From Cafeteria roenbergensis (lineage: Eukaryota > Sar > Bigyra > Bicosoecida > Cafeteriaceae): a stretch of 64,000 nt of DNA. The notes beneath the pieces are model-generated. The model saw only the letters and a list, made by a program, of their open reading frames with translations. It had not been told where the DNA came from and ran no database searches. The stretch lies in NCBI GenBank assembly GCA_008330645.1, contig VLTN01000003.1, positions 682,001-746,000 on the forward strand, given 5' to 3'. The position numbers were made by a program, and so were the translations under genes. This document shows positions 1-54,668 of this stretch, piece by piece. The first letter of the stretch is position 1, and the number at the start of each line of letters is the position of its first letter.

Positions 1-2749
1 CGACGGAGGAGGCGGTGCAATACTCCCCCATGCTCAGCTCGGCTCGCACCAGCCGCTTGTACCCGCGAGACACTTGGAAGAAGTCGAGAGTGAAGCCGAC
101 GAGTCTCGGGACGAGGCTCTTTTCCGGCTCGCTCGACACCTCGACTGGGACCACTTTCTCCGTGCCACGAATCGACCCCAGGAAGTTCGTTCGCCCCCAG
201 CGCTCTCCCGTGAGCGCGTTCGCCTCAAAGTCTTGGGCCTCAACCGGCTCCTTGGTGAGATAAAATGCCGCCTGGCCGTCCTCTAGCTCAAACCACCTCG
301 TTAGCGGGTTGCTTTGGAAGATATTCTCCTCGTAGTAGCAGTAGAGGGGCACACCCGGCGCGTCGCCTGTCGAGACGCGTTCAAGGTCGGACGGAGGCGT
401 CCACAGCGGGTCGTAGCAACGATCTGCCACAGCGTCGAACTTGAGGTTCCAAAAGTACGGGTCCACGAATTGCGTCGAGGCGTACGGCTCCCGGATGCAA
501 GCGGGGTGGTCCTCCATCAGCTTCGCAATGCTAATGTGAGAGTCGTACCCTTCGCAGCTGGAGAACCAGGGCAAGTACGGCAGGTACAAGAACCGGGTGT
601 CGGTGTTTTCCGCGTTCGTCCACCAGGTCGAGTCCTGCTCCACGAGGTATGACGGGTCGCGCGTCACGTCCGGCTGCGGCCGGTATCGCTGGTTCCTCGG
701 CACCCAAGGCCCATCAGGCATCACACTCTGGTAGAGGAAGTCGCCGTCTGGGTTGGCACCTTCTACGTCAGCGGCCGAGAGAAGCGACCTGCGGAGGCTC
801 TCGGGCCGGGTCGGGCCGGAGCGGGATGCAATTGCAATGGACTGCCGCCCTCGCAGGGCAGCATGGCTGCTTGCCGCTAGCGCTGCTGGGCTTGAGACCC
901 CGCCGGTGGCTCCGAACACAGGCTGTACTGAGGCATTCAGCCTTTCGGTCCGAGACGCGAAGTAGCTTGGGTGGCCAATGAGCAAGTCTGCCGGTCGGTC
1001 GATCAGGACGTCGTTCTCAAACGCCTGCTCAAACTCGTTGGGCTGGCCCATCACCCGCACAAGCTGAACTGGGAGGTTCAGGGGAAGGGCCACGTCCTCA
1101 AAGTCTGTCCGCTCCAGCAGCGCCAGGAAAACGCGGCGGTTCGCAAGATCGTTGGGGGCGTACTTGGCACGCGCAGGCGTGAACACGTGCAGCTCTCCAA
1201 CGCCCTTCATGTCTCGCTCAAAGTCGCCATAGTAGAGGCCATGCAGCAGTTCCAGAGCGACTGTCAAAACCGTGTCGCGCAAAGCCGAAATCTGGATCTG
1301 CACAAACGTGTGCTTGTTGTCTTCGAAAACGCCAACCTTCTTGTTCGTCTCGAGCCAGTAGGGCAGCCGCTTTCTCTGGCAGTTGCAGCAGTCGGCGCAC
1401 ATGCTGCCAAAGCCCACCTGCTCGGCCACCGGCGGCCACTCGCAGACGGGTGGTATGGGCACGTAGTCGCATACGTACCGGGGAGGGCACGGGGTGCAGT
1501 CCGCATAGATGCTGAGCTGGTAGTGTGCGTCCCAGGTAAAGTTGACGCTCAACTCGCGCAGGTCAAGGGTCAACACGGCGACTTGGTGCGCTTTGAGAGG
1601 CAGCACGCCGACCCCGCTGCTCCGCGAAAACAGCCCCGAGAGTATGGGCCGGTCGGTGGCGTTGAGCAAGAACTCGTCGGGGATCGGCACCGCTCGACGA
1701 AGCACCTCGTTTCCGGTCTTCTTGCAGTCGAAGATACTGGTAGCATGCGTGCCCGACGTCGTGCCGTTGGGGCAGCGCAGGGCATCCTGGCAACGGCAGT
1801 GGTCGTATCGTAGGGGAACAATGCCTTCGGTGCCGTGCGGCGTCTTGCCTTGAACCAAGGACACACGCTCGGGCAGCTCGTCCCGCAGCGAGAATGCATC
1901 GTCGTCTCCTTGATCCCGCCGCTCGTATCTGCGCACGTCATCGAGGAGGTCCACTGCCCACTTGCTGTCAAAGAGGAAAGCGTCAATTCTGTCGGAAGCT
2001 CCTCGCAGCTTTCCAGGGTTGGTGTCGTCAACTGCGAGCAGGTAGGCCGCGTCGGTCCACTCCTTGAACTCCCGGAATGAGCAAAACGCCGGGCACGGAT
2101 CCCGCAGGTCCAGGGGTCCCCGGCGGGAGCAATTTACGACGGGCTGAAGGTGGCCGCAGCTGCGGAAGTAGGAAGGACCCAAGTGCGGGGGAGGGAGCCG
2201 CACAGCCACATCTGTGAAGTTCCAACCGTTCAAAACCGAAGGGATGCCTCTGAGACGCTCTCGCGTCCACAACTGGCGCTCTTCCACGGGCGTGGAGTCC
2301 ACGTCGGCGTCCAAGATTGTGAGCCCTGGCCCGAGCGGACTGGCCCCGGAAGTGACCCAAAACTCGCACCTTGGCTGGACCTTGTTCACAGTTTCGATGT
2401 GGGTCGCTCCCTTGTCTGTGCAAGCCCACAGGCGGTGCGCCTCGTGGAGCACCCTGACTTGCCGCGTGCAGTTGCACTCCTGCCGCGCGACAGCGTCCAG
2501 CACAGTGCGCCACTTGTGGTCCCTCGCGCAAAGCAGCTCCGCGTCCACTGCCAGGGACACTTGAGCGGTCCGGCCGTTGCCGTCTACCGCTGTGCGGAAT
2601 TGCTTCTGCAGGAGAGGGTCGATTGAGTCGAAGCAGCGCTGGTCGTGGGCGGAGATTCTTCGTGGCAGCTTCTCCCCAGGGAGCAGCTTGGGCTCCCCAA
2701 GCCCGAGCGTGGGGTCTGCTGTCGTGGTGTTCAGGCCTCGGAGCATCGC
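1..2749 (-). other. C-terminal-side ectodomain segment of the giant protein, cut by window edge
   Basis: About 916 residues follow the Cys repeats. They include further cysteine clusters (CPPRYVCDY, CADCCNCQ), strands such as TFVQIQISALRDTVLTVAL, and an aromatic segment FLYLPYLPWFSSCEGYDSH. The reading frame is still open at base 1 (last residues near SMGEYCTASS). I see no hydrophobic stretch long enough for a membrane helix up to the edge. It looks like a globular ectodomain ahead of whatever ends the protein. I recall similar aromatic/Cys segments in large algal and protist surface proteins, but this is memory and not a search result. Confidence 0.6.
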
Positions 2750-5700
2750 GTCGTTGGCGATTTTGCCTTGGAGCGGCTCGAACGTGCCCGTCGGGCAGAA
2801 GTACCCGGGAGGGCAGCCTCTGCGGAACATCTGATTCGGACCGGTGCCATCGAGGCAGAAGTAGCCGGCCGGGCAGAGCATATCGAACTGGCTCTGCGGG
2901 GCCAACAGACTGACGTCGGGCGTCGTGCCGTAGTCGCAAACGAACCCGCCGTTGCAAGGGTAGTCACCGGCACTCAGCGCGCCAGTCGAATCTGGGCACA
3001 CGTACCCCTCTGAGCATGGCTCTGCCCGGCTTCGATTTGGAGTCGCGCAAATGATGTCAGCCTCGCAGGTGCCTGGGTGCCACTGCGCCTCTCCTGCCGT
3101 GTCGTTGAACCTGAAGAACCCGGGCTCACAAAGGTTGAACGGATCGTAGTCTGCCTGAATGTGCAAATGCATGAACAAGCTGCCGAATCCGAACTGACCA
3201 TTGTACACTCCAACCTGTCCGTACCCCTGCGATTTGTTCCCGCGCTGCAGCTCGTGCAAAGGGCCGTAGTAGTCTCGCATCCGCTGATACACGATGCTCC
3301 CGTTTGGCTGCGGGTTTGTGTAGCACCATGCGTCGGGGTGGAGAGGATCGCTGTCGTCGAAGAGGTGACTTCGGCCGGTCGAGTCTATCGGCGGGAGCAA
3401 GACCCCCCAGTAGTGGTCCGCGAGGCGAGGGCAGGTGAAGCGGTCTAGCTCTTTGAGGGCCTGCTCGGTGCGCTCGACCGCGGTGTATTGCATTGGGAAG
3501 TCATGGAACGAGCAAGGGTCCACCATGCCGTCCTCAGGGCAGACGACCCCAGGCGCGCAAGGCGTGCATTGCTGCCTGTCGCGCAGCTCAAACTGTTTCG
3601 ACCATGTCCCCTGCGGGCAGTCCTGGCACACGACCGTGTCAGTCTCGAGAATGCCGCGAAACGTGCCGGGGCCGCAGACGACCGCCATAGAGGAGCCGTC
3701 GGGCTCGCACATGAGTCCAGGTGGGCAAGGATAGCAGTCCACTGTCTCAATCGTCGGCGCATAGTACCCAGCGAGGCACATCTGGCTCGATAGGGCGCCC
3801 AAAATCTCGACGTGGTGGCCCTTGGGGGATGGAATCGGAACTGCCGTCCCCGTGGGACAGTAGAATCCGCGGGGGCACAAGCCCATGCCCACTGGGCTGT
3901 TGCTGCCCGCTTCGCAGAAGAACCCGGCGGTGCAGTTCTGAGCCATCCCTGCTTCACCGTGGGCAACCATCGGCGTGCGAGTTCCGGGAAGGCAGTATGA
4001 GCCAGGGCGGCAAGGGTACGGGCGAAGCACTGTATCGTTTCGGAAGGGATCCGCTGTTGCCGTCCCGTTGAGGCAGTAGAAACCCCTCGGGCAAAGAATG
4101 TTTGGCTCGGCCAAGCGCTTCCGAGAACAGATGAAACCGGCAGGGCAAATAGCCGGGTCCACGCGTCCGAAACCCGGGCAAATGTACCCACGAGGGCAGG
4201 GCTCGCAGCGCGGCTGGCCGATTTGGCCGTTGAACGTTCCTGGCAAGCAGGGCATTGGGTCTGCCTCTCCACGAGCGGGGCAGAAGGTGCCAACAGGGCA
4301 CTGCTTGCGCTTGCCGGCAACGGAAAACGACCCTGGCGGGATGGCTCCGGCCCCCTGCGGCTGGGACGAACCCTGCGGGCAGGCCGCGCCTCCAGCGCTC
4401 ATGCAGGGACCGGGAGCCGCCATGCCTTGCTCTCGAGGAGAGTCTGTTGCAGTTCCGGGCGCGCAGAAGACTCCAGCGGGGCACGGGATTGGTCGCCGGA
4501 GCCGGAAACCGGCGGAAGAGTAGTCAAAGTGGGCGTCTGAAACCGAAACCGCGTCCTCGTCGGCCAGGCGCACGCAGGTGTCATCCAGGCAGAACCTCCC
4601 TCGCAGTGGGGTAAACGGCTGATCTGGAGCAAGCGGGAGCAAGCGTCGCTCGGCCCAGAACCTACCAATGATGCTGCCCCCCTGCAGCCCAACGTCAGTC
4701 GTGCTGTTGTCGAAGCAGGCAGAGTTCCGAGAGCCGGCGAACAAAGACCCGACTCTCTCGGGCTGGCCTGGTCTGCGAGAGGCATGCAGCTCCGCGTGGC
4801 TTGGTGTCAGGGAGGCAGCGGAGCTGAGCTGTGAGAAGCCCAGCTCGGGAAGCAGCTCTTGGCCGCAAGCCGTTGCAGTCGACACCGTTCCCTCCAGGCA
4901 AAAGTGCCCCGCTGGGCAAGGCTGCCGCGGGGTCTCGATCCCGGTCACGTCACACACAAAGCCGGCGGGGCAAACGACCGGCTGGATGAGGCCTGGCGTC
5001 GGGCATGAAAAGCCCACTGGGCACCGCAAACACTCCGTCGAAGCGGGCATCGGCTGGTAGGTGCCGGGAGGACAGAGCGTAAAGTTGCGCATTCCGCGCC
5101 CAGGGCAGTACGCTCCGCGCGGGCACAAAAGCTGCTCTCCGCGCAGCGCTGAGGCGGGGCAGAACCTGCCCGTTGCGCAGGGGGGCTGGATCTCGAGCGA
5201 AGTCCAGCCCGTGTCCGAAAATGCGTTGATTGAGGCGCCAACAGGGGCAGACACTGCGGGACCCCCTGCGGCCTGTGCCTCGCTTCCGGGCGCCTCTTGC
5301 CCGCCGAGGCACAGCATCAGCCGAGGAGAAAGGTACACGGCAGTGCCCTGGTTCAACCCGATCCGGCAGCGCAGCATGGACGTATTCACCAGGCCGGATG
5401 CAAGGATGAATGCGTGCCCAGGCGGGCCGGCGGCCCTGACCTTGTCTGGAGCCACGGCCCGGCGAACGACTGGGTCCTCGACGAACAGGAAGCGGAATCC
5501 ATCGCTCGACGACGACTGGCCGTCCACGCTCACCTCCACGCTGGCAGAGTGGGCGAGTACGAAAGGGTAGTTTGCTGCTCCGGGGAACATGCGCCGGCTC
5601 AGGCTCAAGGGGTCCGGGCGGAGCGTTTCAAGTCGCTGCAGACTGATCCACCTGAGAGTATTGTTCGGTCCTGCAGGCTGTCCAGCAGCGCCTGCCAACG

Positions 5701-32700: not shown

Positions 32701-35700
32701 TGAGCCATACGCATTGTAGCTCTGCAACCTTGAGTGATGCATTGGCCGTGGTGAAACCAACAACCGCGGTTGCGGCAGCCCGGCCAGCGGACGCGGTCCA
32801 TAGCCTTGGTGTCTGCACAAGCTCGAGGTCAGGCTCCCAATCCCGCACCAGCGTCAGGTTCAGGCTGCTGCTCCGCGTGGACTGTCCAGCGATCTCTAGG
32901 CTCAGCTCCACTTGTTGCTCTGCCGCGCCAGTCCGAGGGCAGCTCGCCGTGGAAACGTTGCACTCTATCGTGGCCGATCCCGCGGCTCGCTGTGCTTCGA
33001 GACGCGAAGCGGTCCCAAACTGCTTGCCGCACAGCCCGCAGCTCGCATTCCTGAGGTAGCCCAGCTGTGTGTGGGAGACAAGTGCCGGCGGGAGCCTCAC
33101 CGAGACCTGGACGGCCTGCTCCAGCAGGGGCTGGTCCCATATCAGCCCAGGGCCCAGAGTCGAGCGGGCGGAGGCTACACACACCCTGGGTAGCACCGTC
33201 ATTCCGCGCCGCGAACGTGATGCATCGGTCTCGGCAGGAATCGGCTCGGACGGCGCCGCGAGCCACACGGCACAACCGCTCTGGAACCCGGCACGAGGGG
33301 AGCAGACTGTGGTTGCGTCTCCTGGAGGCCACCGGCAAGTTCCTTGCAATTCCATTCCGCCCTGCACGCTTATGGAAACAGCATCGATCCGTGCTTGCTT
33401 GGATCCGCATTGCAAAACACAGGCCGCCCCATCAAGGAATGATTCGAGCCTGTGTCCGAGCGCCTCATCCTGGGGCCTCAGTTTGAGCTTGAATGAGAAA
33501 TGCTGGCCGTATGTCACTGCCGCCCGTGCCGGTGTCGCCTGGGCCTTTGCAATCACGGTGAGCCGCGCCCCCTGGGTTGCCGGCATCTCTGAGAGGAGAT
33601 CCGACGGAAAGACGACGACGCGCACTGTTCCAAGCCAGGCTTGGAGCGGCCCGGAACCCGGAAGCTTCAAGGGGACAGCACAAGTGGCCATGGCATAGCC
33701 GTCCTTGCCCGGCACCAGATGAGCGCCGTGCGGTGAGCGAAGCGATCGCCAGGCCATGGAAGTCGCGTTGAGGGACCGAAACTCGCACCAGAACGGTACC
33801 GGATGTTGTGGGGTATCCTGGCCCAAACGCACAGCCAACCGAACCAAGCTTCCTCGCGACGCAACTTGCTTGCCCATGAGCACAGTTTGCGGACGGCTCA
33901 GGACTAGCAATGGGGCAAAGCGGCTGCTTGTCACAGCAGGCTGGGCCAGGCCCGCTGCCTCGATGCCAAGGCGCAGGGAGATCGACGTCCCTGCGTGCGG
34001 CAAGCTGCTGCCGGGAAAAGAGCAAGCCCCAGACAGCGTCTCCGCAGGTGAGCGAGGGGGACGAGATGGGATGGACGCCGAGGTCGCAGCACCCACGGCG
34101 TGCACCGACTCCCCTACATGAAGGCGGCACTGCAGCTGTCCTTGGGAATGAGACATCAGCGACGCCGAGGCTGCTGCCCGGAAACCAACGACAAGCGCCC
34201 TGCCTGCCTCAGCCACGGAAATGTTGGTACTCAGCAGCTCCAGTGCTGAATCGTCGCACGCCTTGCGCCATCCCGAGACGGCTGGCCCGCCGCCGACCGA
34301 GAGCCGCAGCTCCAGCGAGGTCGAGCTCCACCCAAAGCCGCGCGCGAGCGAAGCCGGAAGCAGGCACTCTGCGGCCAGAACTGCAGCGGGTCCCGCAGCG
34401 AGCCAACGGCCGCGCCGCGAACTGAGCCCACTGCCCCGGGCGGAGGCAGCCGAAGGCGCGTGCGAAGTGAGCTTGAAGTGACACACGGGCGGCTCCCATG
34501 CTGCAGCAAGGCGGTGCGGCACCTGGGGCAGCTCCACGATCACCGTTGCTCGGCCCACGCTTGCGAAAATCTCCAAACATCGCTTTGACGGACGATCCAC
34601 CACGGGGACCAGAGTCACTGCTGCATCCTGCGTCGAGCCCACCACAGCAAGAGAGCCGAGCCGCTGCTCCTGGCGGGGCACAGATGAAAAGCCCAGAGAC
34701 ACCTGAAACTGGGCCGCTGGTCCCTCGAGTGCGGGCGAGCGGCACCGAGCGGCGCCCGTGGCGGGGCCCTCCCACGCCGCAGCCGTGAAGAGCGGTGCGC
34801 CGCCTTGCCGCTGAGTCCAGATGCAGCGCAGGTGGGGTTGCGGCCCGGCCGCGAGCCCAAGGTGCCGAAGTCCTGGCCCCCCTGACGCCGCAAGGAGGCG
34901 AATTGTCGAACGCTCGACAGCGACAGGCCAGCTTGGCAGCAGCTCCACTGGTGGCGCGTTCCACAGCACGACCGGAATCGGAAGGGTCGCAGAGCCGAAC
35001 GCAACCAGCTCAGCCGCAACAGCGCCTGCCGGAAGTTGGCTCAGCTCCGACCTGTTGAATTTGCAGAGCCAGGAGTCTGAAGCGCGCTCGATCGACTCAG
35101 CCACGATTGATCGGCGGCAGGGTCCGAAGCCGACCCACGCGTCGAGAATGCAGGCGCGGGAGGGGCCATCCGTTGCATTGGCCTGCGCGAAAGGGCTGTC
35201 CGGCGCTTTCACGCGGAGAACAACGCCCGTGGGTTCAGGCGAAGCAACGGTGCTGATCTGAAGGCGGCTGCTCGGCGGGACTTCACGGCGAAAGGCACCA
35301 AAGCGAAGCGACGTCTGGGCTGAGCGCGGCCCGGGCCACCCTGCGTTTCCCAAGTCATTCGCCGTCACGGACACGTTTGCGCTTGATCCTGCGATGTCAA
35401 GCACGCCAAGAGCGGAGGACACGGCTTCGAGGGGGCCCCAGAACTTCGCGACGCTGTCCAGGAATCCATCTCCTCGTCCGAGTGGCGGTGCGAACGACAC
35501 CCTGTCGCGGTTGCGAACGGAAATTGGGGTGTCGTTGCCGTCGACCGACACGGTCATGACGCCCGCCACGGCTCCGCTCGACAGCACCAGCGCAGCGGCG
35601 GGCCTGGCATCCACGGCAGCAGTTGAGCGCGCCGCATCTGAGCTCGGCCTCTGAGCCTGAATCGAAGCGGTGTTCAGCTCGACAGCTGCAGCAAGACCAG

Positions 35701-37051
35701 GATTGCCGTCCGCAAGGAAGGCCTGAAAGAGTTGACGGGGAGGCGTGCCAGCCCGCCCGGCAGGTCCCGGGGCGCCGAACGCAGCACCGACGAGTCGATG
35801 AAGCAGTTCGCGAGCGGAAGTGCGGTTGAGCTCGGGCAGGTCGTTGACACGAATGCCAAGGCCCATTCGTGCGGTCATGGCCGTCGAGCGGGCGCTGGGA
35901 AGCTGGAAGCCGCCAGCCTCACTGCTGAGCAGCGGGTGGATCCCATCCACAAGCTCGAAGCCCCACGCGCGCAGGCTTGCAGGGGGCGCGCCATCCGCGA
36001 ACTGGCTCGCCCAGGCCGCTCGTGCGGCCATGTGAAACGCAGCACCAATCGACGCTGGCGAGACAGCATGTGCTGCTGCGCCTCCCTGCCTGTCAAACCT
36101 GATGTGGGCCGTGGCAATGACTACTTCCTCGCCGTCGCAGGGCTGAAACGGACACTTCTGAACCACTTCGCGATTTGCGCAATGGCCGTACTCGTTCCGC
36201 GGGATGATCGTCTTTCGCCGGGAGCTCCTCCACCCGCCGCCCTGGGAGCCACAACCCAGACCACTGGAGCATGGGGAGAGCGCCTCCATGCCCCCCAGGG
36301 TGCAGTTCCGCTCGCAAGCGGCGCCATGGTCAAACTCAAAGAACCCGTGCCGAAAGCCCTGGCTTGAACAGAGCACCACGACATTCCCTGCTGCCCCCGT
36401 GCTATTGTCGCATACCTGCGTCGAGAAGAAGCCGTCAGGGGGCGCCTCGCAACCAGGGAGTCTGGTCGTTCCGACGGGTAGGACGTGGCACTGGACGCCC
36501 AGCCGAATTCGCGGGGGCCGAAGGTCCAGCTCTGCGAGCGGGCCAGACGGCGCGCCCCAGATGCCAATGTTGGGGTCACATCCGACGCCGGGGGTGGTCT
36601 TGCTGCCGCTTAGCTGGAACAAAGTCCGGCTTGGGCCTGCAGCGCGTCCCGCAGGTCCGCCCCCGTCCTCATGAACAAATTCAAGCGCGAATGGTGCAAA
36701 TGTCGCGTTGACTGACGGGCTGCTCGCGCCAGAGAGATGCTGCGGGGGTCGAGTCGAGCAGCAAAAAATGCGCTTGGAATCGGGATGTGCCTGTGAGCGG
36801 TCCTGTTCGGGGGGCGTTCTCGCTTGCCGCGCGCAGACAGCACGAACTCCGGTTTCGGTCTGCGAGGCTGCTGCACCCGTGGCTTGAGGGCTGCAAGCAG
36901 CCCACGCAGCGAACGCGCGCCCACTTACCCTGCCGTGTGGCGTGCTTGCCGATGGACCAGCTGGGTGCAACGGGCGGTCGCCTCGCCCGTCCGCGCCCCC
37001 ACACAACGCAGCGAAGGCCACCAGCGCCCACCACAGGGCGGGCCACCCCAT
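1..37051 (-). CDS. Giant secreted/surface multidomain protein (IPT/TIG-like modules, Cys-rich repeats), C-terminus beyond window
   Basis: One minus-strand frame (codon first bases at coordinates congruent to 1 mod 3) is open from the ATG at 37051 to base 1. In-frame stops at 37109 and 37076 fix this ATG as the first one. The protein starts MGWPALWWALAFAALCGG, a clear signal peptide. Removing one likely 189-base intron leaves at least 12,287 residues, already over 1 MDa and still incomplete. Order: TSP1-like cysteine motif (about residues 190-245), a roughly 9,000-10,000-residue stretch of IPT/TIG-like beta modules with a second beta module inside it, about two dozen CxxGxxC (GCC2/GCC3, ephrin-receptor-like) repeats (about residues 10,560-11,370), then a Trp/Cys-rich ectodomain cut by the window edge. 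I translated the ends fully and many internal samples; all were open. IPT/TIG domains are Ig-like folds found in large surface receptors. Adhesion, surface coat or particle capture is inference. Downstream transmembrane segments are expected but not visible. Codon third positions look less GC-biased than in genes to the right. Confidence 0.88.
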   Translation of the reverse strand, partial: MGWPALWWALVAFAALCGGADGRGDRPLHPAGPSASTPHGRVSGRAFAAWAACSPQATGAAASQTETGVRAVCARQARTPPEQDRSQAHPDSKRIFCCSTRPPQHLSGASSPSVNATFAPFALEFVHEDGGGPAGRAAGPSRTLFQLSGSKTTPGVGCDPNIGIWGAPSGPLAELDLRPPRIRLGVQCHVLPVGTTRLPGCEAPPDGFFSTQVCDNSTGAAGNVVVLCSSQGFRHGFFEFDHGAACERNCTLGGMEALSPCSSGLGCGSQGGGWRSSRRKTIIPRNEYGHCANREVVQKCPFQPCDGEEVVIATAHIRFDRQGGAAAHAVSPASIGAAFHMAARAAWASQFADGAPPASLRAWGFELVDGIHPLLSSEAGGFQLPSARSTAMTARMGLGIRVNDLPELNRTSARELLHRLVGAAFGAPGPAGRAGTPPRQLFQAFLADGNPGLAAAVELNTASIQAQRPSSDAARSTAAVDARPAAALVLSSGAVAGVMTVSVDGNDTPISVRNRDRVSFAPPLGRGDGFLDSVAKFWGPLEAVSSALGVLDIAGSSANVSVTANDLGNAGWPGPRSAQTSLRFGAFRREVPPSSRLQISTVASPEPTGVVLRVKAPDSPFAQANATDGPSRACILDAWVGFGPCRRSIVAESIERASDSWLCKFNRSELSQLPAGAVAAELVAFGSATLPIPVVLWNAPPVELLPSWPVAVERSTIRLLAASGGPGLRHLGLAAGPQPHLRCIWTQRQGGAPLFTAAAWEGPATGAARCRSPALEGPAAQFQVSLGFSSVPRQEQRLGSLAVVGSTQDAAVTLVPVVDRPSKRCLEIFASVGRATVIVELPQVPHRLAAAWEPPVCHFKLTSHAPSAASARGSGLSSRRGRWLAAGPAAVLAAECLLPASLARGFGWSSTSLELRLSVGGGPAVSGWRKACDDSALELLSTNISVAEAGRALVVGFRAAASASLMSHSQGQLQCRLHVGESVHAVGAATSASIPSRPPRSPAETLSGACSFPGSSLPHAGTSISLRLGIEAAGLAQPAVTSSRFAPLLVLSRPQTVLMGKQVASRGSLVRLAVRLGQDTPQHPVPFWCEFRSLNATSMAWRSLRSPHGAHLVPGKDGYAMATCAVPLKLPGSGPLQAWLGTVRVVVFPSDLLSEMPATQGARLTVIAKAQATPARAAVTYGQHFSFKLKLRPQDEALGHRLESFLDGAACVLQCGSKQARIDAVSISVQGGMELQGTCRWPPGDATTVCSPRAGFQSGCAVWLAAPSEPIPAETDASRSRRGMTVLPRVCVASARSTLGPGLIWDQPLLEQAVQVSVRLPPALVSHTQLGYLRNASCGLCGKQFGTASRLEAQRAAGSATIECNVSTASCPRTGAAEQQVELSLEIAGQSTRSSSLNLTLVRDWEPDLELVQTPRLWTASAGRAAATAVVGFTTANASLKVAELQCVWLRRSLSDGIAGTSPVQVLRAGAPAFGVEAACTVPAGAVAASYAHMVAVLPKSLHTRAATLAVAWHKRRPLLWLAAPLVAEQPEGALSIIPPLDSHAKVLLDQPLLLAHWESLHCKFVDRRSGVGSASGAWRLASIDGDGQSATVRCPVKRQGEPEGDHVVVLQVRSAWGARPLVEFWGQAVVIQVSGPLQGADLALPALRSELHPGASMQLADRGGGVMPWRRWLHKAARTCQLRVATLPDAAANQSLAAPPQRTVLGMLAGSATSKTAVWCRPVAGEWLADGDEVLDRVSFALVALSIWRREDDEQRPPALEVGPAVFRLDTPPGACLERPQIAVLRRAQDSQRHSAVGCVRVGAAMAEQEPSELRCVLRRADGARSGGAWGHGQSLTLAHAGSVAGASSQAGEVLCPMQPAQLGVEPAGIASQTLLAVQIGVQAAAQARTRTAQTHWGEAAILLSEAVLDDAMLQDIEVSAIAGDVVQRNLSWSGSVSAVSRVLDASRCSFAFRRHQQQPIIGRRPVWRLASVSAASGRVSVLTSCRLPGDIAGGVSVWLSVAQSGENVNVAVVSQWVRVLEPPPKLAPVSIAVQRASSDLDPVRTSLRCLEAPSTGFLASLKAGRWSCRVSIQSGFAPRSYVVQNATLLAGMGIGCGAEVLHGSAEVELVPSIQYSGQPSVAVEVASPALRVRLAAVPVSRLLNASPGRVREGGGVQVKALLANSSLHAAAWGVYLWCVWSRVEPQPGGIVAITPATLATASGILCPSPATRPGTLALALAATPAGEPGATTGWGSAGSSTLAALPPGLELLSSRGVAGDPPAPWLDAAAPRLEVTPAAVVLEAGPLSGPGSGGTEVVFRGEGLGSAGGQLECDFGGIRTRARLRPDGESVACRSPAAADRQLSVSLALLADGQMVGKPPGSRTDEFRYFASVSWANVAPRHVFAFKPFEIRLSSAGEVWAHGEGASCRIQVFDTPQGARLVEATESLVSGSSLVCRFERLAECSSGPKALLFSSRAAVSVGASAKWAYVGGVTLHCQGIPGSMEPELVFNGASTTAVLRWPTLAGGNHPLPAAAHWSKCRFDQASGASVDSPLLLLSDTFAVCAVPNLLPGLLTASLVTEASGGLLPEAMPVAHGRAEDPPPVVGLVPPVILDRSRQAAVTVLLGGAASSPSWPITPACWVAESRVVASLSQRPFGISCSIPHRLVRAGARLTVAASLNGRDVLPGNETPLSVQVHSPPAVVDVWPSVLVRAALPSDAATELRMQLHGTAWLADLLLPALRCSIDALYVGSGQGLDAVTCPATVATNGSASVVTCRVPLSALLSGSSAVQVKVIGVLGTPLLEGADSDASSFPVVTVAVPWAPQVALVDLRPLAVSEAGGQTVHAGAAGQLGSSGVRLWCVWSRVEPQPGGIVAITPATLATASGILCPSPATRPGTLALALAATPAGEPGATTGWGSAGSSTLAALPPGLELLSSRGVAGDPPAPWLDAAAPRLEVTPAAVVLEAGPLSGPGSGGTEVVFRGEGLGSAGGQLECDFGGIRTRARLRPDGESVACNAPASPAQRPGQLLPTSDLPPVPLKLVDSSNDAVLGAQTGSLWFGYAKTPEISALWPRAVAPSGRCGGPLHVFGFGFINASELLCLVGEAPSRGTFVSYSRVECRDWESALAGPTAPGSQLPVRLSFRSGTQTLTSSASAIVVWPNPVIQTASPTTLASGGGTITIRGSDLNFPLPQGTLCALTSGRIDTQAESCLAGPDINPLPSPVVGVVRVLSSERLTCTFGSLSPGSFDLVIWREGTARSALAAGRIRVDASFRGAAAFPTAGVLGLSQPVTFVGLSLPPVLAAQGVGGLPDLYCVFGDDVTVAHWSSTTSAHCRPPASVKGASVVALELVANCSTLAGCSSFAVGTEILFQGHFEFVKASSALEVLPPWVMVPSEGATSVQLGGSGIRAWLREIAAPEVELARHWCSAKPMEPMNPQSVPSQGTPDAPLRGMLVAESNGLMLCIFDSPDPPGQIRHSLAGKCAASSQSEFCSAEYLVQLHESASAAGAPSSLASLSAVATFSLAPRPIRVTPSRLVKCQPGGAWPALRIMVASPLPSVPLECRLWNTGRNASRIGTAPALADGAYAAYCSLASLWTARVVEQVILVEVGAPTVDSQPAQPSRSALPLVVEPCPSVRLSATARAVEGADGPVATVRFDGAGELARSIHEGRSRALDGMPLLVCRWALLPSDFDEELETPVVWNAATASAECGLPAKLAAVRVASSARILALSGVTNSGKGQYSVAWEGQVNSEAATIVLSVDRVFASAPLSAAQSASLRVVLLRDPRARLGPVGRCSFACFGQNTSVWGKVSPRDGAWDCTVAMSEMSRLRLPFGTGLGDGEPCEGQRLLVTLQEGSSTSTAALPAGLLTSLIPDASRDTASAAAFPSVLISGTRASVALLSLPPTHQVDVGATFCLFAGRLPTAAKWISDTAASCDVPGGLRPGSIRLRLRWVAAGRPGGVSVRLRVLRAPEVSAPRLRVEPPGVDSVVEFRGGPFPLADQGGPDLACVEGTGSEVGAVASGVQFRSPVAVSATLVQCSPPQRNGTVSGLAVRHVAGGHELLAPLRTVEQACETCLPQSPKPGTFLSVSVHPSTIVIGADSTRDAAAPVKVAGLPLGSSPAKEWCEWAGAESGVMFGSSAMTRDPLEPSTGACSLPVSSSLAAAVAESKQSQVQLALVVSSSAGSLAEVRVGVVTVKLQCAMWSAAPAVVLVGAPALPSPIHVEATGLLNPSTGLERELYCRIGAALPERAAVTSDTRLLCPGPGTQPHRTGPASLRIFEAVAQSQDGARTQSLRACAGQRVVLQLARVARVSVWPVVPEEGVRAPGSPRVAFVVQALISGLASDGLAASFAAPTCQLSSQPRGAASAVATGTLLGVRRTGSSSSDLELTVECQWSISQLEDVSLEGRRAVVVKVGARNATSFASAPLDIEAARAASGATTAPRVTGGAVVLSSGGSGTARLQFDAGWPGKGLNSSCSLHFGRLDLHVVGMLQPSTIAGQPHLNPRPTSACFFPELERQVLNRTRTIGRLDLSNMGLATLEAASPGVPGHFQALVRLEPALEFSSPPVAVPLANGSTAVVGLISRPLLWSAAASAGPEGCRIGSRRAFHQVVAWAGAGQAAQFGCLFSASLSVGGLGGLRMALQEPESGSSAISAAPLAVPSSVSLLAASWPSDELSLALSICYAGGRWQSGRGLSLPTHCQFDSGEANGLASHKSSVSRNATTMQGPSRACSMGVVVVACQVPWQVLLSLGSTPWRVGALAAESSVFGPLQLGESLPVPLPAAAPSLQRGFTGAGAVWEGEGVAVRLPAPAAELRCQCEWTQEPLTGRRALAVPGQHQGRTMLLCKAPSGWQGSARLQASCCGTRENCTRSVPIAQAGVLLLQRPSVRSLAVEAQQYGSATLLIQGQGFSPEHAFYCSMAGATVPTVAEFVSHGALRCRHPRSSSASGGPKGTSDSVGAVVFVWGRPFFHGASASLPTVSGSTLLGRVRIRKPQELAVVASSPAAVVAGTSEWLSLQLAPGSVAAMYSATGRQPTFECAWTAPGSRAAQVSDALVMADTARCQFQPQHTIRSPASVAVRLQQRVSEQTQSMAQVLVSGDAKVLVVPRTQLYRLWPVVVLSSRPARLEVTATAIGGALPWQRGMQECRFATPQGHTAISAAGPSAASLAIPGIARLGCTVPPLAQWAPDLANSSAVSISVAVAAKGQTQAPSLGGSAASGLKLTVLRGAVLLSAVTPAVIPKHGGAAMEIRLDTSGSKIVSDVAKTQRLLCVVGRAVSRAWVERGESAVGCRSPPVGHPGRGLVRLAIDTSDPTVSPEAAPGVMLSSNSLVVEVADIAAVLSVWPLVLVAESDAQAPQGLTMTVAAGAGERSADAFWLRAALVGAQGLGRASEVQCSSVDGGNDESPNASNGVRIYCPFPSWASMGALARGVPSPSAAASWVAVALSSSPAAASSALDAAPDVLASFPRVGGWASSTRLECQARKLCAVLQVLPPMASPSIVVSPQSVSPAGGAVMRIASEALATAVAQSRVAFDCHLRVRALGSSQAAHSWAVPAAVLSSDDGSGSGSRLECTAPEMAEVAAHLVRQPDAKATAELSLQARGAASQLPLGKLSIRLAPRVASDADPGMVAVGLAADTPRLVRFQVRASWERSLLCAFGAPFRVDVAGFRSPDGSLECPLPLASVRRPTTTRVSVVDSDGLGSTSAATEDARFSSLPWWVGREGRPSTTVVVVPAATIETVLPESAWRLGGERVRLTGIGLDPASVSPFCVVFDRNLGFDALSQRSPAEILSDSSAECVLPAFWAADAGITLGWQGREPIPSAATVRFMALVSLGSAEPTSGPAGEATTVSLLGVGFLRIRNPRCLVRWIAAGDAAAHTGEAEELAKEWVRAVVVSNTEALCTVAGLPGATGAALALGDGVQSVSDQEAHFFFLPPVVLAAVSPRTITVGVPATIRLEGSGFASATHLTCRVGASEPRTARVVSDSLAECSIDAPSVPTSLIVALSGNGRRVSRWAGDGEGLGPRLEAIAEQSVVRIEPAAGGVSGGTVVHVFANSDLLAASAAGGPGLDAPQPFCYFGDAVVPGSTAPGASGPPSSFTCVSPPSEELGQRALRVELRAPFAPAGAFVHVPSSVVFTYVADSRVYGIVPPRLPASGQALSKIVGFGFSDWLAPKARFVVVPEGASTSPARQASVAVRVVSDTEAVVGVPPGLVSPSIGSSARASVSFEVGHGQWQMLPVPVQLYCPPQILRVVPGFVPAETATTVSLVGRGFSVLMAGGGLSCAFGGTDALGAASVLSDSQVECSVPALGNGPQRRLVFLVADGVAASQCGETDHIGAGVDAAQGGGGSACALEVVSRSVVDRVAPLVVSNAGGQTLTWYGFNLASLASQPGLACRFWGMEPSDTPAFGVTHGFRAEKNWPQSPPMMDPGQDRVRCRVPPLLGVQGPVTVQLVHEAAAAQLAGTPRPLGVSPASLNEGLGVAVNVSFYEPPAVRSVLPAVVSHRGGAQLVLQLRRPLTAAPAHLSAWQPRCIFVARATGEQVAASDASVSVATSREGPALARCLSPRLQSGALSFALKTQREDIAVCLALLPAAPVDPGLGGHVTVIHWDLELLQAAPVAATPTWDGQVFARAEEPDRFLAAAESGGLAGLKCGFHEVGAGDRPRLDSPALISLEASGVACRWPAPGMEPRAGQSFHLVVGFSAGEVSTSTGPVTVTDESFVLRASPSLVVVGWPTAVNASVSRWGNHREQLPQDCVFGPRQAAWQEGRSSARALLSLSLPGESLVGCVVSAQSAGLHWLGVVESGSRVPRVVQQASALVRAVEEVRVSAAWPSKLHRVKQARMQLRADEPSAAADACCWACGTRAASPGQLVSSPGTQWACGAIGWLAANRSYTCREVRSAGCPERHQSLTMAIAGAGVFLSKELVVPLLGGFAAPHAVVPSVWTRAPLPLPVASLPPAALVELGTALPSGVSVGDAVWCNSSARGAGQLPAWSSVTRGRIVAKSWVECTRPDVPAEYASARPEALLRLEAAEARQQIQRLSLPFGRTPVEEVQRVSIRPQAPCGQQTRLQYRTEGSARGLPHTANVTLEFSGAPKTAVLRIEAEVFRAPRLQLVLPLAATTMNLPPQFQIVAGRAGLERSRAIHSWMSAADIRSALEVLPSFQGSEVTIERLWVPEGVARVNVSLRTAFAGVPPVALESEASTSEWHRLLAGSSRLEILDHGTACDEFRVTVARDQSGAASRARCWARPSGRFLFSVDTTDTVAAVQDAVARSLLGEMGPLSVAVEDSLASRVVRIGFPSGVEANPPAPVELELQCEVAPGSRSTVSAVRSSTSRAVGPVEGAASVTAAVSAYLNLPWSPSEAFTVHTATSALELRDLLAAAGLRASVARRASATQAAVEWEIVAHEADSGLLNLSVSPAVQQQRSGAPLVTSLVVADHGSKPLDLRVPLSGHSRRFWLMFEGHVSRELLTNATVEDIASAVQAELPCFGSAAVTDDSRGTVAAGRQLRISVLKTGCAALWSGALLPQFVEEGANPASALLLSPGQSDGSAWRLYGSVSSGSAADSASAFASTWIPQDADASDIELALSAAGVGVVTVRSVGPARPFPTTLVVSFDGRRSGILQLGVESKPPRRVSAAIQLSENASSAKCCIEPSDSPALLVGAECNLSSSEQPLAWRRAQLVGISQTSGVEDSTREVAQAEHASRLIFPSSSTAAAVKAAVSSAVLAGCPQLGDSSRLRTLLQATHVVGPLRHADGGTSWDVDFDPELSNLVTVRLDLADPSLDATGRATAAVTRSAVAPLVVRISVASPLSVVGGWLTFAAASNASAQTGKVAWNATPAEVAGSLSQLETVGRAREALGFQCQSVAGSGPNWDVALLDIPRDAALKSGIPFVGIGATLLTSAFQGAAVHIDPCSGPMLPAAGIGKLRLELPASTYPQGGVGATPWLDPWATADEIEAAFASIGSPSVRVSARDVAGGRDWVLTFASGRPSSASWALDAQAEGLPAALTAVPEANSPLRVEVSRLQTGHAGVGAAVFRVLQPGRLETDELARRVPLAAGEGEMAAALERLPGVAPGVSVRIESGPGDEQSWTITFSASQPSTIPAISVDWELLEYQGRRTGTATADAIGDEPAAAALSGVFDWHWDSDSMAALLGEPPRRAAACTLQAIPVQVSDRELQALLATCTKSASLLEVRRVEAPREGIPRMHANLRAFSLSVGPSPGSIRGGGAYRFPLPVIGAAGVLGTDATASVFEARGGCCAISLSMDGMHFGAATAFFAVEESVSRVVLASPELLELGTAARQALVFRGLHPQTGSLRCGFRLASAVAWSPVSLDSGSASCAVPTPVTIAVPPSLGPRAVVHGFIGIGETSVEQPLATFAIEARAPPLLVGAAEVVALPEDVGLDGQLELRLQASLEMLGGDAGQGLLCACLCPGCSAERPVVSNASVLATHGGVADVVCPTGVRQASAAAVGQWAVALGWNAEAVAARAAQPRPGGQVLVTTFRPVALGKLLSELARPVPWNGTSSRLSFSLKGDVPLAVATELEVVIGDDEPVDAYPGPARAVLGLHAPTAPTTRPGRLGGASEPRVARLQSQGDSLQVALPGHRGVVEEVQVVSMSSPLLQPDSHILSFSLWAPQGGNQPWGGAAVVVSDASLSPPACDSSMAALGRVASAEVAQLPTSFNNFSSVADGQVWNASGATVRLEELSAERLRAAILQGTGATAVKVEELSPAEAARHAFGASGACSRTPGMSIHGLPELRLQDGPLCGLRGMRLAVASDDVVTCMRPRRVTDARELPSSESRPALAVAFKVQVQSWDGPAPLLLAGAVLPGSRSSDEVGAASATEDIRVRATRVPNSGKLLGARGWHARAGAVPSARLRIWPELQVNLTMPDRAGMPEVQLISLRASSPLHERASGPLGLSILASSAGGWANVSVFASEEQLAFAILASDGSQVAVRRRLLDSQTAGAPFAVDYEVQWAAPGPRQLLRAALSGQAANSLASDVLVRVSRVRLGVPASSAPDAVTVFCRICDAQLGPVRVNETVGVDGDWLRRALAAVLRPNGIGYLIQDEGGNGVPGRHASWTVRLVGQRALDLLGSGPQRGGDEHPLPLAVSPSQDPNVSVSLLWPGLTPHSEAMMSMRIRVNVLGWGAVPPGVANRRPLASFEIGCSAPPAAAAAGLQRALELAASNVSGEALLGTRDPVDGVGLANLSMAHVVATREAVADPFDCAWEFSLSAGLGAGPMLQVEWAEGASSTLAAGYDMVQQVLQWGNYSSLSGEVNLAFDGVPAALGMQARLATDEKQRWTSSLDVNDTGPINLAASLKALPGVGSINVSVSCGPHPHTRTMLAACGQRCGPAPLEQCEWVVQFHAEPAERVGIWHLGAQPLLNVNASGLLPLGQSGVAVHRLVQGVGASRSLRIRAAGRILAGAQERELVERNQDTLAGLPTAGSFVTYVAWPVLWDVEPRSLPATGWNGSLAVRVAPFSPPLGPATLLSREFKWRFSGGQLLASHSRPALEDGDQITTRLGIAMPDAPLEPELHHTVPASCACTNCSRGASLVCEARKLPMTMPDSGVVAVRLSVDGTHYSPPQSGTSIDSRTDTLALFSPPRLARVFPPFGPKRGGGFAIVTGAGIADLRASQAQAQASRLGLAWDAWADEPSSCGEGTSGPWDTASCGTGSIRDSPFGATWQGLPVPRETLAGLNPSICQFGKSQREAVAAARTRSSAAGTAAAQVARSFGEELSRIPLAAFGGDAEALGCAVPPLGEAAGCEVSDCAHLGAQSSSPTTGVDVTIRPGGREMGNAKLQYTYTQDLEASAVAPLRGSWGGGTDVRIELAAPLGLGVVQLEHARCRFRMQSLSPAAQRLLGGLQSGDTSWGEHGATSPALPVHGAPADGDDAPAAGVRAVTCRAPPMLRSAEVQAVAVTLEPQPNSTSGDWLGASPSASVLVSGPWAFSGDQGPASRLVTAAGRPIVTQPPGSAVAGIPRVRFQVSLCWVAPEWEVRGRFCGGARVSSRSLHAFADAAEVELAIEEAIASSPLGWAGAAALPPPKVARTPARPLAGGGVSFAWLFRFDPSSGDLPNGVVVVQAEPPAGRGNASAVLRAGPVRTLSNGSAGVFGSPPFSGSSTASSASGEAHVELALNGVDFEPTGFRFVYVQPPWVDSISPHFGLSSRDTVLRVSGRGFLNSTAALCRFSLATAGDAARTVVGQTPATVVNSTLLLCTAPPIHRQVVGSLVAPTKVTVQFALNGKDSAACDISSSAPGQAMFTYLPAGPVVAKVAPNVALSSGTTVLHVSGSGFLPTSEARCHFASAPILSADESQRPLSPTGEAPAVVVDAESAFCQAPALPIGTYTVRFANNGQDDSPAGAQLHVVDPPAVDSLRPVLGAAHVAGTRLQIAGQGFVNSSSLSCVFDDLAVAATFVSAKRIECLSPSLDQRRRAGYGQEFHPVGPYEHVFQTVEAPALAGAAGQPAGPNNTLRWISLQRLETLRPDPLSLSRRMFPGAANYPFVLAHSASVEVSVDGQSSSSDGFRFLFVEDPVVRRAVAPDKVRAAGPPGHAFILASGLVNTSMLRCRIGLNQGTAVYLSPRLMLCLGGQEAPGSEAQAAGGPAVSAPVGASINAFSDTGWTSLEIQPPCATGRFCPASALRGEQLLCPRGAYCPGRGMRNFTLCPPGTYQPMPASTECLRCPVGFSCPTPGLIQPVVCPAGFVCDVTGIETPRQPCPAGHFCLEGTVSTATACGQELLPELGFSQLSSAASLTPSHAELHASRRPGQPERVGSLFAGSRNSACFDNSTTDVGLQGGSIIGRFWAERRLLPLAPDQPFTPLRGRFCLDDTCVRLADEDAVSVSDAHFDYSSAGFRLRRPIPCPAGVFCAPGTATDSPREQGMAAPGPCMSAGGAACPQGSSQPQGAGAIPPGSFSVAGKRKQCPVGTFCPARGEADPMPCLPGTFNGQIGQPRCEPCPRGYICPGFGRVDPAICPAGFICSRKRLAEPNILCPRGFYCLNGTATADPFRNDTVLRPYPCRPGSYCLPGTRTPMVAHGEAGMAQNCTAGFFCEAGSNSPVGMGLCPRGFYCPTGTAVPIPSPKGHHVEILGALSSQMCLAGYYAPTIETVDCYPCPPGLMCEPDGSSMAVVCGPGTFRGILETDTVVCQDCPQGTWSKQFELRDRQQCTPCAPGVVCPEDGMVDPCSFHDFPMQYTAVERTEQALKELDRFTCPRLADHYWGVLLPPIDSTGRSHLFDDSDPLHPDAWCYTNPQPNGSIVYQRMRDYYGPLHELQRGNKSQGYGQVGVYNGQFGFGSLFMHLHIQADYDPFNLCEPGFFRFNDTAGEAQWHPGTCEADIICATPNRSRAEPCSEGYVCPDSTGALSAGDYPCNGGFVCDYGTTPDVSLLAPQSQFDMLCPAGYFCLDGTGPNQMFRRGCPPGYFCPTGTFEPLQGKIANDAMLRGLNTTTADPTLGLGEPKLLPGEKLPRRISAHDQRCFDSIDPLLQKQFRTAVDGNGRTAQVSLAVDAELLCARDHKWRTVLDAVARQECNCTRQVRVLHEAHRLWACTDKGATHIETVNKVQPRCEFWVTSGASPLGPGLTILDADVDSTPVEERQLWTRERLRGIPSVLNGWNFTDVAVRLPPPHLGPSYFRSCGHLQPVVNCSRRGPLDLRDPCPAFCSFREFKEWTDAAYLLAVDDTNPGKLRGASDRIDAFLFDSKWAVDLLDDVRRYERRDQGDDDAFSLRDELPERVSLVQGKTPHGTEGIVPLRYDHCRCQDALRCPNGTTSGTHATSIFDCKKTGNEVLRRAVPIPDEFLLNATDRPILSGLFSRSSGVGVLPLKAHQVAVLTLDLRELSVNFTWDAHYQLSIYADCTPCPPRYVCDYVPIPPVCEWPPVAEQVGFGSMCADCCNCQRKRLPYWLETNKKVGVFEDNKHTFVQIQISALRDTVLTVALELLHGLYYGDFERDMKGVGELHVFTPARAKYAPNDLANRRVFLALLERTDFEDVALPLNLPVQLVRVMGQPNEFEQAFENDVLIDRPADLLIGHPSYFASRTERLNASVQPVFGATGGVSSPAALAASSHAALRGRQSIAIASRSGPTRPESLRRSLLSAADVEGANPDGDFLYQSVMPDGPWVPRNQRYRPQPDVTRDPSYLVEQDSTWWTNAENTDTRFLYLPYLPWFSSCEGYDSHISIAKLMEDHPACIREPYASTQFVDPYFWNLKFDAVADRCYDPLWTPPSDLERVSTGDAPGVPLYCYYEENIFQSNPLTRWFELEDGQAAFYLTKEPVEAQDFEANALTGERWGRTNFLGSIRGTEKVVPVEVSSEPEKSLVPRLVGFTLDFFQVSRGYKRLVRAELSMGEYCTASSV
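2750..5190 (-). other. Cysteine-rich ephrin-receptor-like (GCC2/GCC3) repeat array in the giant protein
   Basis: The frame encodes about two dozen motifs of the form C-P-x-G-[FYT]-x-C, among them CPRGAYC, CPVGFSC, CPAGFVC, CPAGHFC, CPVGTFC, CPRGYIC, CPRGFYC, CTAGFFC, CPPGLMC, CPQGTW, CAPGVVC, CSEGYVC, CPAGYFC and CPPGYFC. Most are followed by a glycine- or asparagine-rich loop. This is the GCC2/GCC3 or Ephrin_rec_like repeat, disulphide-bonded and extracellular. A roughly 150-residue non-repeat segment (near 3.5 to 3.1 kb) containing YNGQFGFGSLFMHLH interrupts the array. Confidence 0.85.
12800..15100 (-). other. Second repeated beta module (A-x-E-[ML]-x-x-A-L-x-x-[LI]-G-V-x-V type) in the giant protein
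   Basis: Between the clear IPT copies lie units with an amphipathic helix, a short turn and two or three beta strands. Examples are GEMAAALERLPGVAPGVSV (about 12.9 kb), ATADEIEAAFASIGSPSV followed by a strand ending DWVLTF (about 13.2 kb), and ALELRDLLAAAGLRASV (about 15.0 kb). They resemble a helix-strand module I know from large bacterial and protist extracellular proteins (A-x-x-V-Q-A-A-L-E-A-L-P pattern). I am not certain of a family name. The limits are those of the copies I read; more may exist outside. Confidence 0.5.
28057..28528. repeat. 472-base exact direct repeat, copy A
   Basis: This segment is identical, base for base as far as I can read, to 30046-30517. The flanks differ immediately (t versus c on the left, g versus c on the right). 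Both copies lie in the giant reading frame at the same codon phase. Each encodes about 157 residues with an IPT-like core (LEVTPAAVVLEAG, then a GG-containing strand and LECDFGG). Confidence 0.95.
30046..30517. repeat. 472-base exact direct repeat, copy B
   Basis: Second copy of 28057-28528, in direct orientation, offset 1,989 bases, which is exactly 663 codons. The frame is kept and the peptide is identical. The intervening sequence is not repeated. Since all other modules of the protein are highly diverged, identity here points to recent duplication, gene conversion or an assembly artefact. Confidence 0.95.
36130..36290 (-). other. Thrombospondin type-1-like motif in the giant protein
   Basis: The translated segment runs SPCSSGLGCGSQGG, then WRSSRRKTI, a glycine, and a Cys-rich end finishing CPFQPC. 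This follows the TSP1 pattern: S-x-C, then C-G-x-G, R-x-R, G-x-C and a closing C-x4-C. The usual first tryptophan is missing, so it is a degenerate or related fold. It is followed by a mixed alpha/beta stretch with a putative SEA-like feel, for which I have no firm family. Confidence 0.45.
36740..36928 (-). other. Probable first intron of the giant gene
   Basis: On the minus strand a strong donor (CAGG followed by GTAAGT) comes right after the signal-peptide coding exon. A pyrimidine-rich tract containing TTTTTTGCTGCTC leads to an acceptor CCCCCGCAG. Both junctions are phase 0 and the length is 189 bases, exactly 63 codons without a stop. The frame therefore stays open whether or not it is spliced. 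Splicing joins the residues TPHGR to HLSGASS. The low-complexity reading of the retained version, compared with the residues on either side, favours a true intron. Confidence 0.65.
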
Positions 37052-45388: not shown

Positions 45389-45430
<42 letters not shown>

Positions 45431-46193
45431 TATCGTGCACGATGGACTTCCCCCGTTGTCCCGAGAGGCCCGCCCAAACGCGCATTGCCAGGCGAATGGC
45501 GTACGACGCCAGCAGTGCCATGGAGAGCCACAACGCGGTCAGCTGGGACAGAGGTGCCCCGGGCGCGGGCGGCGGCTCAGACGGCTCGCCTCTTGATGCG
45601 GAGGAAGAGACCGCTGCTCTTGGTGACTTTGCTGGCGCCGATGACCCAACGGACACCTGCAGCGAGCTTGGGGCCTGGTTGCCGCCGCGACCGGCCGCGG
45701 CGCGGGCAAGCGCCCGCCGTCGAAGCATTGCCTGCTTGCCAGCGGCGCCGCCCCCGCCTCCCCCGAGGGGAGCAGCAGCCGCGGTAGCCTCGCGTTCCCC
45801 ACGGTTTCCAGGATCAGTGTCCAGAAGCGTTCCAAACGAGCGCGCCGTCCCGTAGGAGCTGGCAGGCCGACCACCAGCCAGCGCCTGCCGGCCCGCGGAC
45901 GAGCCAGAGGCGGACGAACCGGACTTGCTCCCCGAAGTCGAGCTTCCGGACGCGCGCTGTGCCTTTCGCGCACCGGGCCGGTTGGCTGCGTCCAGGTCGG
46001 GCCGCACTCGCAGGCAGCAGGCGACAGGTTCCACGCAAAAGTGTAGCACTGCACTTGCCGACCCGTTCGCCCAGCGCTCACAAAGCTGGCGGCCCTCGCG
46101 CACCACCGACTTGCAGGCCTCGCTGCCAACTAGGATCGACTGATCGGCCACGGCGTGCGCAGCGTTGGCGTACACTGCGCTGCTGGAGCGCAT
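40773..46193 (-). CDS. Very large acid-lipase-type alpha/beta hydrolase
   Basis: The frame gives 1806 residues from the ATG at 46193; another in-frame ATG at 46373 is possible. The C-terminal part matches the lysosomal acid lipase / steryl ester hydrolase family. It has a lid-entry segment TYRVRTADGYLLRL, then YFQHGLLDSASAW, the nucleophile elbow GHSMGG (Ser near residue 1466), an aspartate in AGELDALIPP (near 1642) and a histidine in LGHLDF (near 1676). Family members are about 400-550 residues. Here about 800 residues precede the domain, with several hydrophobic hairpins (for example LWLSMALLASYAI and VTVWVLLLV) and an Asp run. Two disordered inserts of about 190 and 365 residues interrupt the domain, one of them before the FWQYSVDDH segment. 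Membrane or lipid-droplet attachment, with lipid ester hydrolysis, is inferred. Some insert sequence could be unspliced intron. Confidence 0.82.
45395..45430. repeat. Trinucleotide microsatellite (CGT)12
   Basis: Twelve perfect CGT units, read on the minus strand as a run of aspartate codons just after a hydrophobic hairpin of the large lipase. Repeat-length variation would change only the acidic run and not the frame. Confidence 0.95.

Positions 46194-53471: not shown

Positions 53472-53506
<35 letters not shown>

Positions 53507-54636: not shown

Positions 54637-54668
<32 letters not shown>

Follow-up and report, generated by a model that had tools for sequence, protein, structure and literature searches.

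The window analysed here, a 64,000-base stretch of contig C3 (C3:682001–746000), contains a minus-strand open reading frame that begins at base 37051 and is still open at the left window edge. Contig names (C2, C3, C8, C10 and so on) refer throughout to the same genome of 36,303,456 bases in 167 contigs, deposited as Cafeteria roenbergensis. The source organism is almost certainly Cafeteria burkhardae, the name for strain E4-10, which was earlier called C. roenbergensis (PMC7852580). The published C. roenbergensis BVI assembly has 70.1% GC, and 1.67–1.89 introns per gene are reported across four Cafeteria strains (PMC6972860). The features of the giant gene and two neighboring ORFs with Pfam matches are listed in Table 1.

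In a six-frame stop count over positions 1–37051, the giant frame shows no stop in 12,350 codons (ORF 2..37051, 12,350 aa, with an ATG at its start and its 3′ end open within the window), as against 219, 175, and 152 stops in the three plus frames and 225 and 204 in the other two minus frames. The preliminary description had proposed one huge minus-strand frame running out of the window, and this frame was recovered; an in-frame stop was looked for throughout 1–37051 and none is present. When the adjoining DNA (C3:674001–682000) was added, following the extension proposed in that description, the frame was found to end with a TGA at C3:678294–678296, ~3.7 kb beyond the window. The complete protein comprises 13,585 residues (1.42 MDa), and in the genome search the same frame measures 13,593 codons from stop to stop.

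The coding character of the frame is maintained along its length. The GC content of both the first and the third codon positions exceeds that of the second in every one of 45 windows, each 900 nt long. With stops ignored, 474 of 540 100-codon windows give the giant frame the highest score among the six frames, and its score is above zero in 539; among the 66 windows that it does not win, 61 favor an antisense frame. The weakest stretches include codons 1–125, 176–350, 1201–1375, 9401–9675, and 10,901–11,050. Much of the stretch up to codon ~350 has an ambiguous coding signal, and the exact start codon is therefore only putative. An ARAGORN call of tRNA-Asp at 22828–22913 falls inside the coding frame and was rejected as a false positive, as no Rfam family reached its gathering score anywhere in the window. 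The absence of stops, compared with 152–225 in each of the other frames, together with the codon-position bias, excludes chance openness. Thus, the frame from 37051 to C3:678294 is a real gene with one very large open frame, putatively intronless and probably transcribed as a single mRNA.

Table 1. Features of the giant gene, in gene order, and neighboring ORFs (positions in the window unless prefixed with C3; all residue numbers refer to the giant protein).
Feature	Residues	Position	Strand	Basis
Giant ORF, window part (codons 1–12,350 of 13,585; end at C3:678294, outside the window)		1..37051	-	ORF scan, six-frame stop count, coding bias
Hydrophobic N-terminal leader, putative signal peptide	1–22	36986..37051	-	Inspection
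Cys-containing N-terminal segment	216–330	36062..36406	-	Read earlier as TSP1-like; without Pfam support
Main TIG/Ig-like array, partly degenerate, gapped	684–6897	16361..35002	-	Iterated HMM, Pfam TIG
472-bp exact direct repeat, first copy		30046..30517	-	100% identical to second copy
472-bp exact direct repeat, second copy, inside the TIG array		28057..28528	-	100% identical to first copy
Seven ~100-aa repeat copies, unnamed in Pfam	7093–8132	12656..15775	-	Repeat profile search
Eighth copy of the ~100-aa repeat	9252–9369	8945..9298	-	Repeat profile search
Second TIG array, with the best TIG matches of the protein in the iterated HMM	9425–10634	5150..8779	-	Iterated HMM, Pfam
Cys-rich Ephrin_rec_like (GCC2/GCC3) block	10625–11425	2777..5179	-	PF07699, CPxGx(x)C motifs
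Juxtamembrane ectodomain, largely conserved in the C8 paralog	11426–12350	2..2776	-	Paralog alignments
Membrane core, followed by the tail	~12392–12925	C3:680277-681878	-	Hydropathy, paralog alignment
Neighboring ORF, 1,973 aa, Abhydro_lipase match		40773-46694	-	Pfam
Neighboring ORF, 1,198 aa, ubiquitin carboxyl-terminal hydrolase match		51183-54779	+	Pfam

An HMM iterated from the TIG matches of the genome assigned 35 domains with E<0.01 to the giant protein as a whole; reversed and shuffled controls gave no matches in the final round and one match each in rounds 3, 4, and 5 (counted from 0). Three pieces that jointly span the window part of the protein scored 99, 43.9, and 66.3 bits with Pfam TIG (PF01833; curated cut-off 20.9 bits), and single TIG domains score at most 29.2 bits in the genome search. 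The IPT/TIG-like modules proposed initially are thus borne out. Within the main array, residues ~830–2120 are free of TIG matches; together with residues ~23–683 and ~8130–9250, this gap is among the longest stretches that contain no recognized module. The two copies of the 472-bp repeat lie in the same codon phase, with a spacing of 1989 = 3 × 663 bases, and may reflect a recent in-frame duplication, gene conversion, or an assembly effect.

The ~100-aa repeat occurs eight times in the C3 protein, three times in a paralogous giant protein encoded on contig C8, and not at all in a third one encoded on C10 (see below), with no control matches at E<0.01; the Pfam scans gave no match over any of the C3 copies. 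Structure prediction of the repeat, modeled with its eight copies, and of the juxtamembrane region, modeled alone, yielded unusable folds (mean pLDDT 44.4 and 33.7, respectively).

The Cys-repeat modules of the preliminary description proved to be of the Ephrin_rec_like type. PF07699 exceeded its cut-off of 23.1 bits with a 1,000-aa piece (24.8 bits) and in the genome search (24.6 bits), but stayed below it, at 14.7 bits, when a 2,350-aa piece was scanned. Of 14 CPxGx(x)C motifs in the protein, 13 fall within the Cys-rich block. A TSP1-like module, claimed in the same description, was not recovered: Pfam returned nothing with E≤10 for either the first 1000 or the first 500 residues, the TSP1_spondin score of a 130-residue piece was 8.9 bits, with the cut-off at 41, and none of the nine TSP_1 matches listed for the genome lies in the giant gene. 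In a phmmer search of PDB, the Cys-containing segment near the N-terminus retrieved eight sequences up to E 10, seven of them APOBEC3G-type (best E 0.03), which we take as chance.

The membrane core and the tail are encoded outside the window. By hydropathy alone, at a threshold of 1.6, the core contains nine hydrophobic segments in the C3 protein, nine in C8 (with a tenth upstream of the core), and ten in C10. Alignment by eye points to one or two further membrane segments in the C3 core, for an overall number of ~9–11. Ahead of the core, the hydropathy profile exceeds 1.9 in one segment in C3, four in C8 (one of which is the leader), and two in C10. The protein has 84 N-glycosylation sequons ahead of the core and three behind it, a bias consistent with a glycosylated ectodomain on the outside of the cell. 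The C3 tail is basic (pI 9.2) and presumably cytosolic. Pfam scans of the core pieces at E≤10 gave no match in C3 (aa 11741–13433) or C10 and only DUF2914 in C8, at 12 bits and below its cut-off of 23.6; no cytosolic signaling domain was recognized in any of the three. No relative of the core was found in PDB. Pattern searches with short conserved stretches, which distant relatives can escape, also revealed none in viral contigs (116 pattern matches, none confirmed) or in bacterial and archaeal contigs (41 pattern matches, none confirmed).

A 693-residue query covering the core identified three loci in the genome (three of three candidates scored), and each of them lies within a giant frame. 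In addition to the C3 gene itself, these are a 16,961-codon frame on C8 (37% identity to the query) and an 8,336-codon frame on C10 (31%). The first Met of the C8 frame is at codon 311 and is followed by a hydrophobic leader, which gives a protein of ~16,651 residues. The C10 frame adjoins an upstream 2,007-codon frame, with an overlap of 38 bases. At C10:668159–672001, equal-scoring TIG matches recur every 837 bases and form a tandem array, inside which the reading frame switches. The C3 giant frame is therefore not the longest of its own three-gene core family. Titin, MUC16, and PKZILLA-1 are larger than or comparable to it as well. The initial placement of the protein in the size class of the largest known proteins holds insofar as 13,585 residues is very large, but the protein is no record, given the longer paralog frame in the same genome.

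The identity between C3 and C8 is 46.7% across 1,393 columns (C3 aa 10633–11962) and 32.8% across 1,400 columns (C3 aa 12120–13404); between C3 and C10 it is 27.5% across 984 columns. In the three-way core alignment, the two paralogs are 36% and 32% identical to C3, with many invariant residues, and the order of C-terminal modules is the same in all three proteins. Upstream of C3 aa 10124, blastp between C3 and C8 gives no match at E≤1e-4, even though the ~100-aa repeat occurs in both; between C10 and C3, the common core and scattered TIG similarity were detected. Thus, with the C-terminal ~3,000 residues alignable and the upstream comparison empty, conservation is confined to the C-terminal part, and the greater share of the ectodomain has diverged.

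Giant frames are not confined to this family. The TIG and Ephrin_rec_like matches listed for the genome (at least 144 and at least 57, respectively) include hits in at least 16 different frames that span 5,000 or more codons. In a 10,496-codon frame at C2:1280501–1286000 and a 6,089-codon frame at C44:103001–109000, Ephrin_rec_like matches are followed by eight hydrophobic segments. The C-terminal pieces of these two frames gave no match to the core profile (best E 0.2), and the frames possibly represent further giant receptor families. A piece of a giant ORF on C25 contains Cys repeats and no hydrophobic segments like those of C2 and C44. Pairs of TIG matches of equal or similar score were also observed at C2:959061, C83:106121, C51:260010, C67:12891, and C8:14706, in frames of 1,007–7,959 codons, and suggest a recently copied giant-gene family; the pairs on C67 and C8 are near the starts of their contigs.

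Codon usage changes within each of the three core-family genes. The GC content at fourfold sites rises from 0.660 to 0.761 in C3 (change-point at codon 11,375), from 0.819 to 0.933 in C8 (codon 12,971 of the frame), and from 0.753 to 0.912 in C10 (codon 5,479); the analysis left out codons 1–310 of C8, which precede its first Met, and codons 1–1,500 of C10. The observed likelihood gain was reached by none of 500 block permutations in any of the three genes, and the rise is present in all eight fourfold families. Fourfold GC is lower overall in C3 than in C8 and C10. The first 1,000 codons of C10 have a fourfold GC of 0.90, which is at odds with a simple two-level picture. The C3 change-point is located inside the conserved part, and those of C8 and C10 are somewhat ahead of theirs. 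Most simply, the step would reflect codon selection that acts more strongly on the conserved core.

The same step could arise if the locus produced several mRNAs, such that the conserved C-terminal ~3,000 codons were also expressed from an internal promoter as a shorter receptor and the giant form were rare. The recurrence of the step in all three paralogs fits such an arrangement, as does the lack of a consistent rise in fourfold GC toward the 3′ end in six other ORFs of the window. However, selection for accurate translation of a more constrained core accounts for the step equally, the C3 change-point is internal to the conserved block and does not coincide with its beginning, and the frame upstream is coding and open for ~10,600 codons. 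We therefore consider the production of a separate short receptor unlikely and retain a single giant protein as the preferred reading.

We compared the giant protein with several known systems, of which the cysteine repeat modular proteins (CRMPs) of alveolates are the closest in architecture. CRMPs are needed for rhoptry discharge in Toxoplasma, where they form a CRMPA/CRMPB pair, and for mucocyst discharge in Tetrahymena; their membrane core has nine segments in Toxoplasma and Plasmodium and five predicted segments in Tetrahymena (PMC9815656, PMC9670195). They are termed apicomplexan-specific in one place, and elsewhere in the same source homologs are reported in Chromera and Paramecium, with expanded sets in both, and in Dictyostelium, the last with similar predicted membrane cores (PMC9815656). 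As far as these sources describe them, CRMPs (Toxoplasma CRMPA/B, Plasmodium CRMP1–4, Tetrahymena TtCRMP1/2) share with the architecture predicted for the Cafeteria protein a large exported ectodomain that varies between members, an Ephrin-receptor-like Cys-rich block, a C-terminal multi-pass core with a cytosolic C-terminus, and, in most cases, several paralogs per genome.

Like CRMPs, the C3 protein has an Ephrin-receptor-like Cys-rich block ahead of the membrane core. With respect to the nine-segment core of CRMPs, rough hydropathy at 1.6 counts nine segments each in the C3 and C8 cores and ten in C10, and the by-eye alignment suggests one or two more in C3. The two EGF-like domains of the CRMP core have no Pfam EGF match at E≤0.01 in the window part or at E≤10 in selected pieces, scans that divergent copies could escape. 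In contrast to CRMPs, the Cafeteria protein has a very long TIG stalk and no Pfam match to Kringle, its host is a stramenopile, and no secretory organelle is tied to it. To our knowledge, Cafeteria ectodomains of ~10,000 or more residues are longer than those of any CRMP. Thus, the C3 protein resembles CRMPs in architecture, and we do not class it as a CRMP because its EGF-like domains went undetected, the number of membrane segments is uncertain, and the likeness of the core is architectural. In literature searches on CRMPs, giant proteins, GCC2/TIG, and Cafeteria surface proteins, none of the matches listed ties CRMPs to Cafeteria or describes the giant gene in its title or the start of its abstract.

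Tandem TIG/IPT domains in a large ectodomain are also characteristic of the single-pass receptors of the plexin/Met type and of fibrocystin and its relative (PKHD1, PKHD1L1), and PF01833 matches the Cafeteria protein too. These receptors have a single-pass base, whereas the base predicted for the Cafeteria protein is multi-pass, with a Cys-rich block before the membrane. Neither Sema, PSI, and G8 nor parallel-beta-helix domains were matched by Pfam (E≤0.01 in the whole window part; E≤10 in aa 11741–13433). The missing G8 and parallel-beta-helix matches, combined with the multi-pass hydropathy, speak against membership in the PKHD1/fibrocystin-L family. Adhesion GPCRs likewise combine a long modular adhesive ectodomain with a multi-pass core and provide an analogy for contact sensing, but the Cafeteria core has ~9–11 hydrophobic segments by rough hydropathy and not seven. 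Membership in this family is not supported, as no GPS/GAIN match was found by Pfam in the window part and the core piece and at least nine segments are indicated by hydropathy. With titin, MUC16, and PKZILLA-1, the Cafeteria protein shares the size class of at least 10^4 residues; their functions are unrelated, and the Cafeteria protein differs in being encoded in a single open frame and in not being the largest of the class.

Given the absence of stops in 13,585 codons, the conserved C-terminus, the multi-pass hydropathy, the sequon bias, and the TIG array, we propose that the gene probably encodes a giant adhesin-sensor in the plasma membrane of C. burkhardae, a small marine flagellate that feeds on bacteria. 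The N-terminus would be exported, and a stalk assembled from TIG/Ig-like and other modules, tens of them in all, would project from the cell and bind prey, surfaces, or other cells. The Cys-rich block and the conserved juxtamembrane domain would link this stalk to the many-pass membrane core with its basic cytosolic tail, and the core and tail may relay a contact signal inward, as proposed for the alveolate CRMPs that license exocytosis. Among 825 genes up-regulated in stationary phase in C. burkhardae, IPT (TIG) and EGF-like domains are enriched with log2 values of 1.62 and 1.44, and Laminin G and GPS with 4.43 and 3.69 (PMC7852580). This enrichment suggests that proteins of the class are expressed during starvation, and it is evidence on the class, not on the giant gene itself.

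The ectodomain could instead belong to a giant structural coat or matrix protein, a mucin- or titin-like filament that is anchored by the core and has no role in sensing. Its repetitive, modular make-up would suit such a filament, as would the empty blastp comparison between the upstream parts of C3 and C8. Yet the multi-pass core and the conserved juxtamembrane region and tail appear to exceed what a plain anchor needs, and we regard a purely structural role as improbable. That the frame is an artefact of high GC or of misassembly, with no single protein product, is scarcely credible: spurious long frames do occur in high-GC DNA (those antisense to a paralog reach 1,837 codons) and the C10 paralog is broken into two frames, but the stop counts, the codon-position bias in every window, and the domain matches along the frame argue against it, and the protein-level conservation seen over the last ~3,000 residues already refutes chance.

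The surprising points about the giant gene are its size and its openness throughout, but giant frames recur in the Cafeteria genome and the size is no record. Megadalton surface receptors encoded by unbroken frames of 41–51 kb in a unicellular organism would provide a test of the limits of transcription, translation, and export. The codon-usage step within each of the three paralogs offers a natural test of translational-accuracy selection on a very long mRNA. We hypothesize, tentatively and with the odds rather against it, that a CRMP-type contact-triggered receptor core predates the split of alveolates and stramenopiles, that the Cafeteria versions, with ectodomains of ~10,000 or more residues, sense contact with prey or surfaces and thereby initiate feeding or secretion, and that the invasion sensors of parasites were derived from feeding sensors. 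If the core is indeed CRMP-like, the trigger of apicomplexan invasion would be tied to a feeding or contact sensor of free-living protists, and a harmless, culturable model would be gained.
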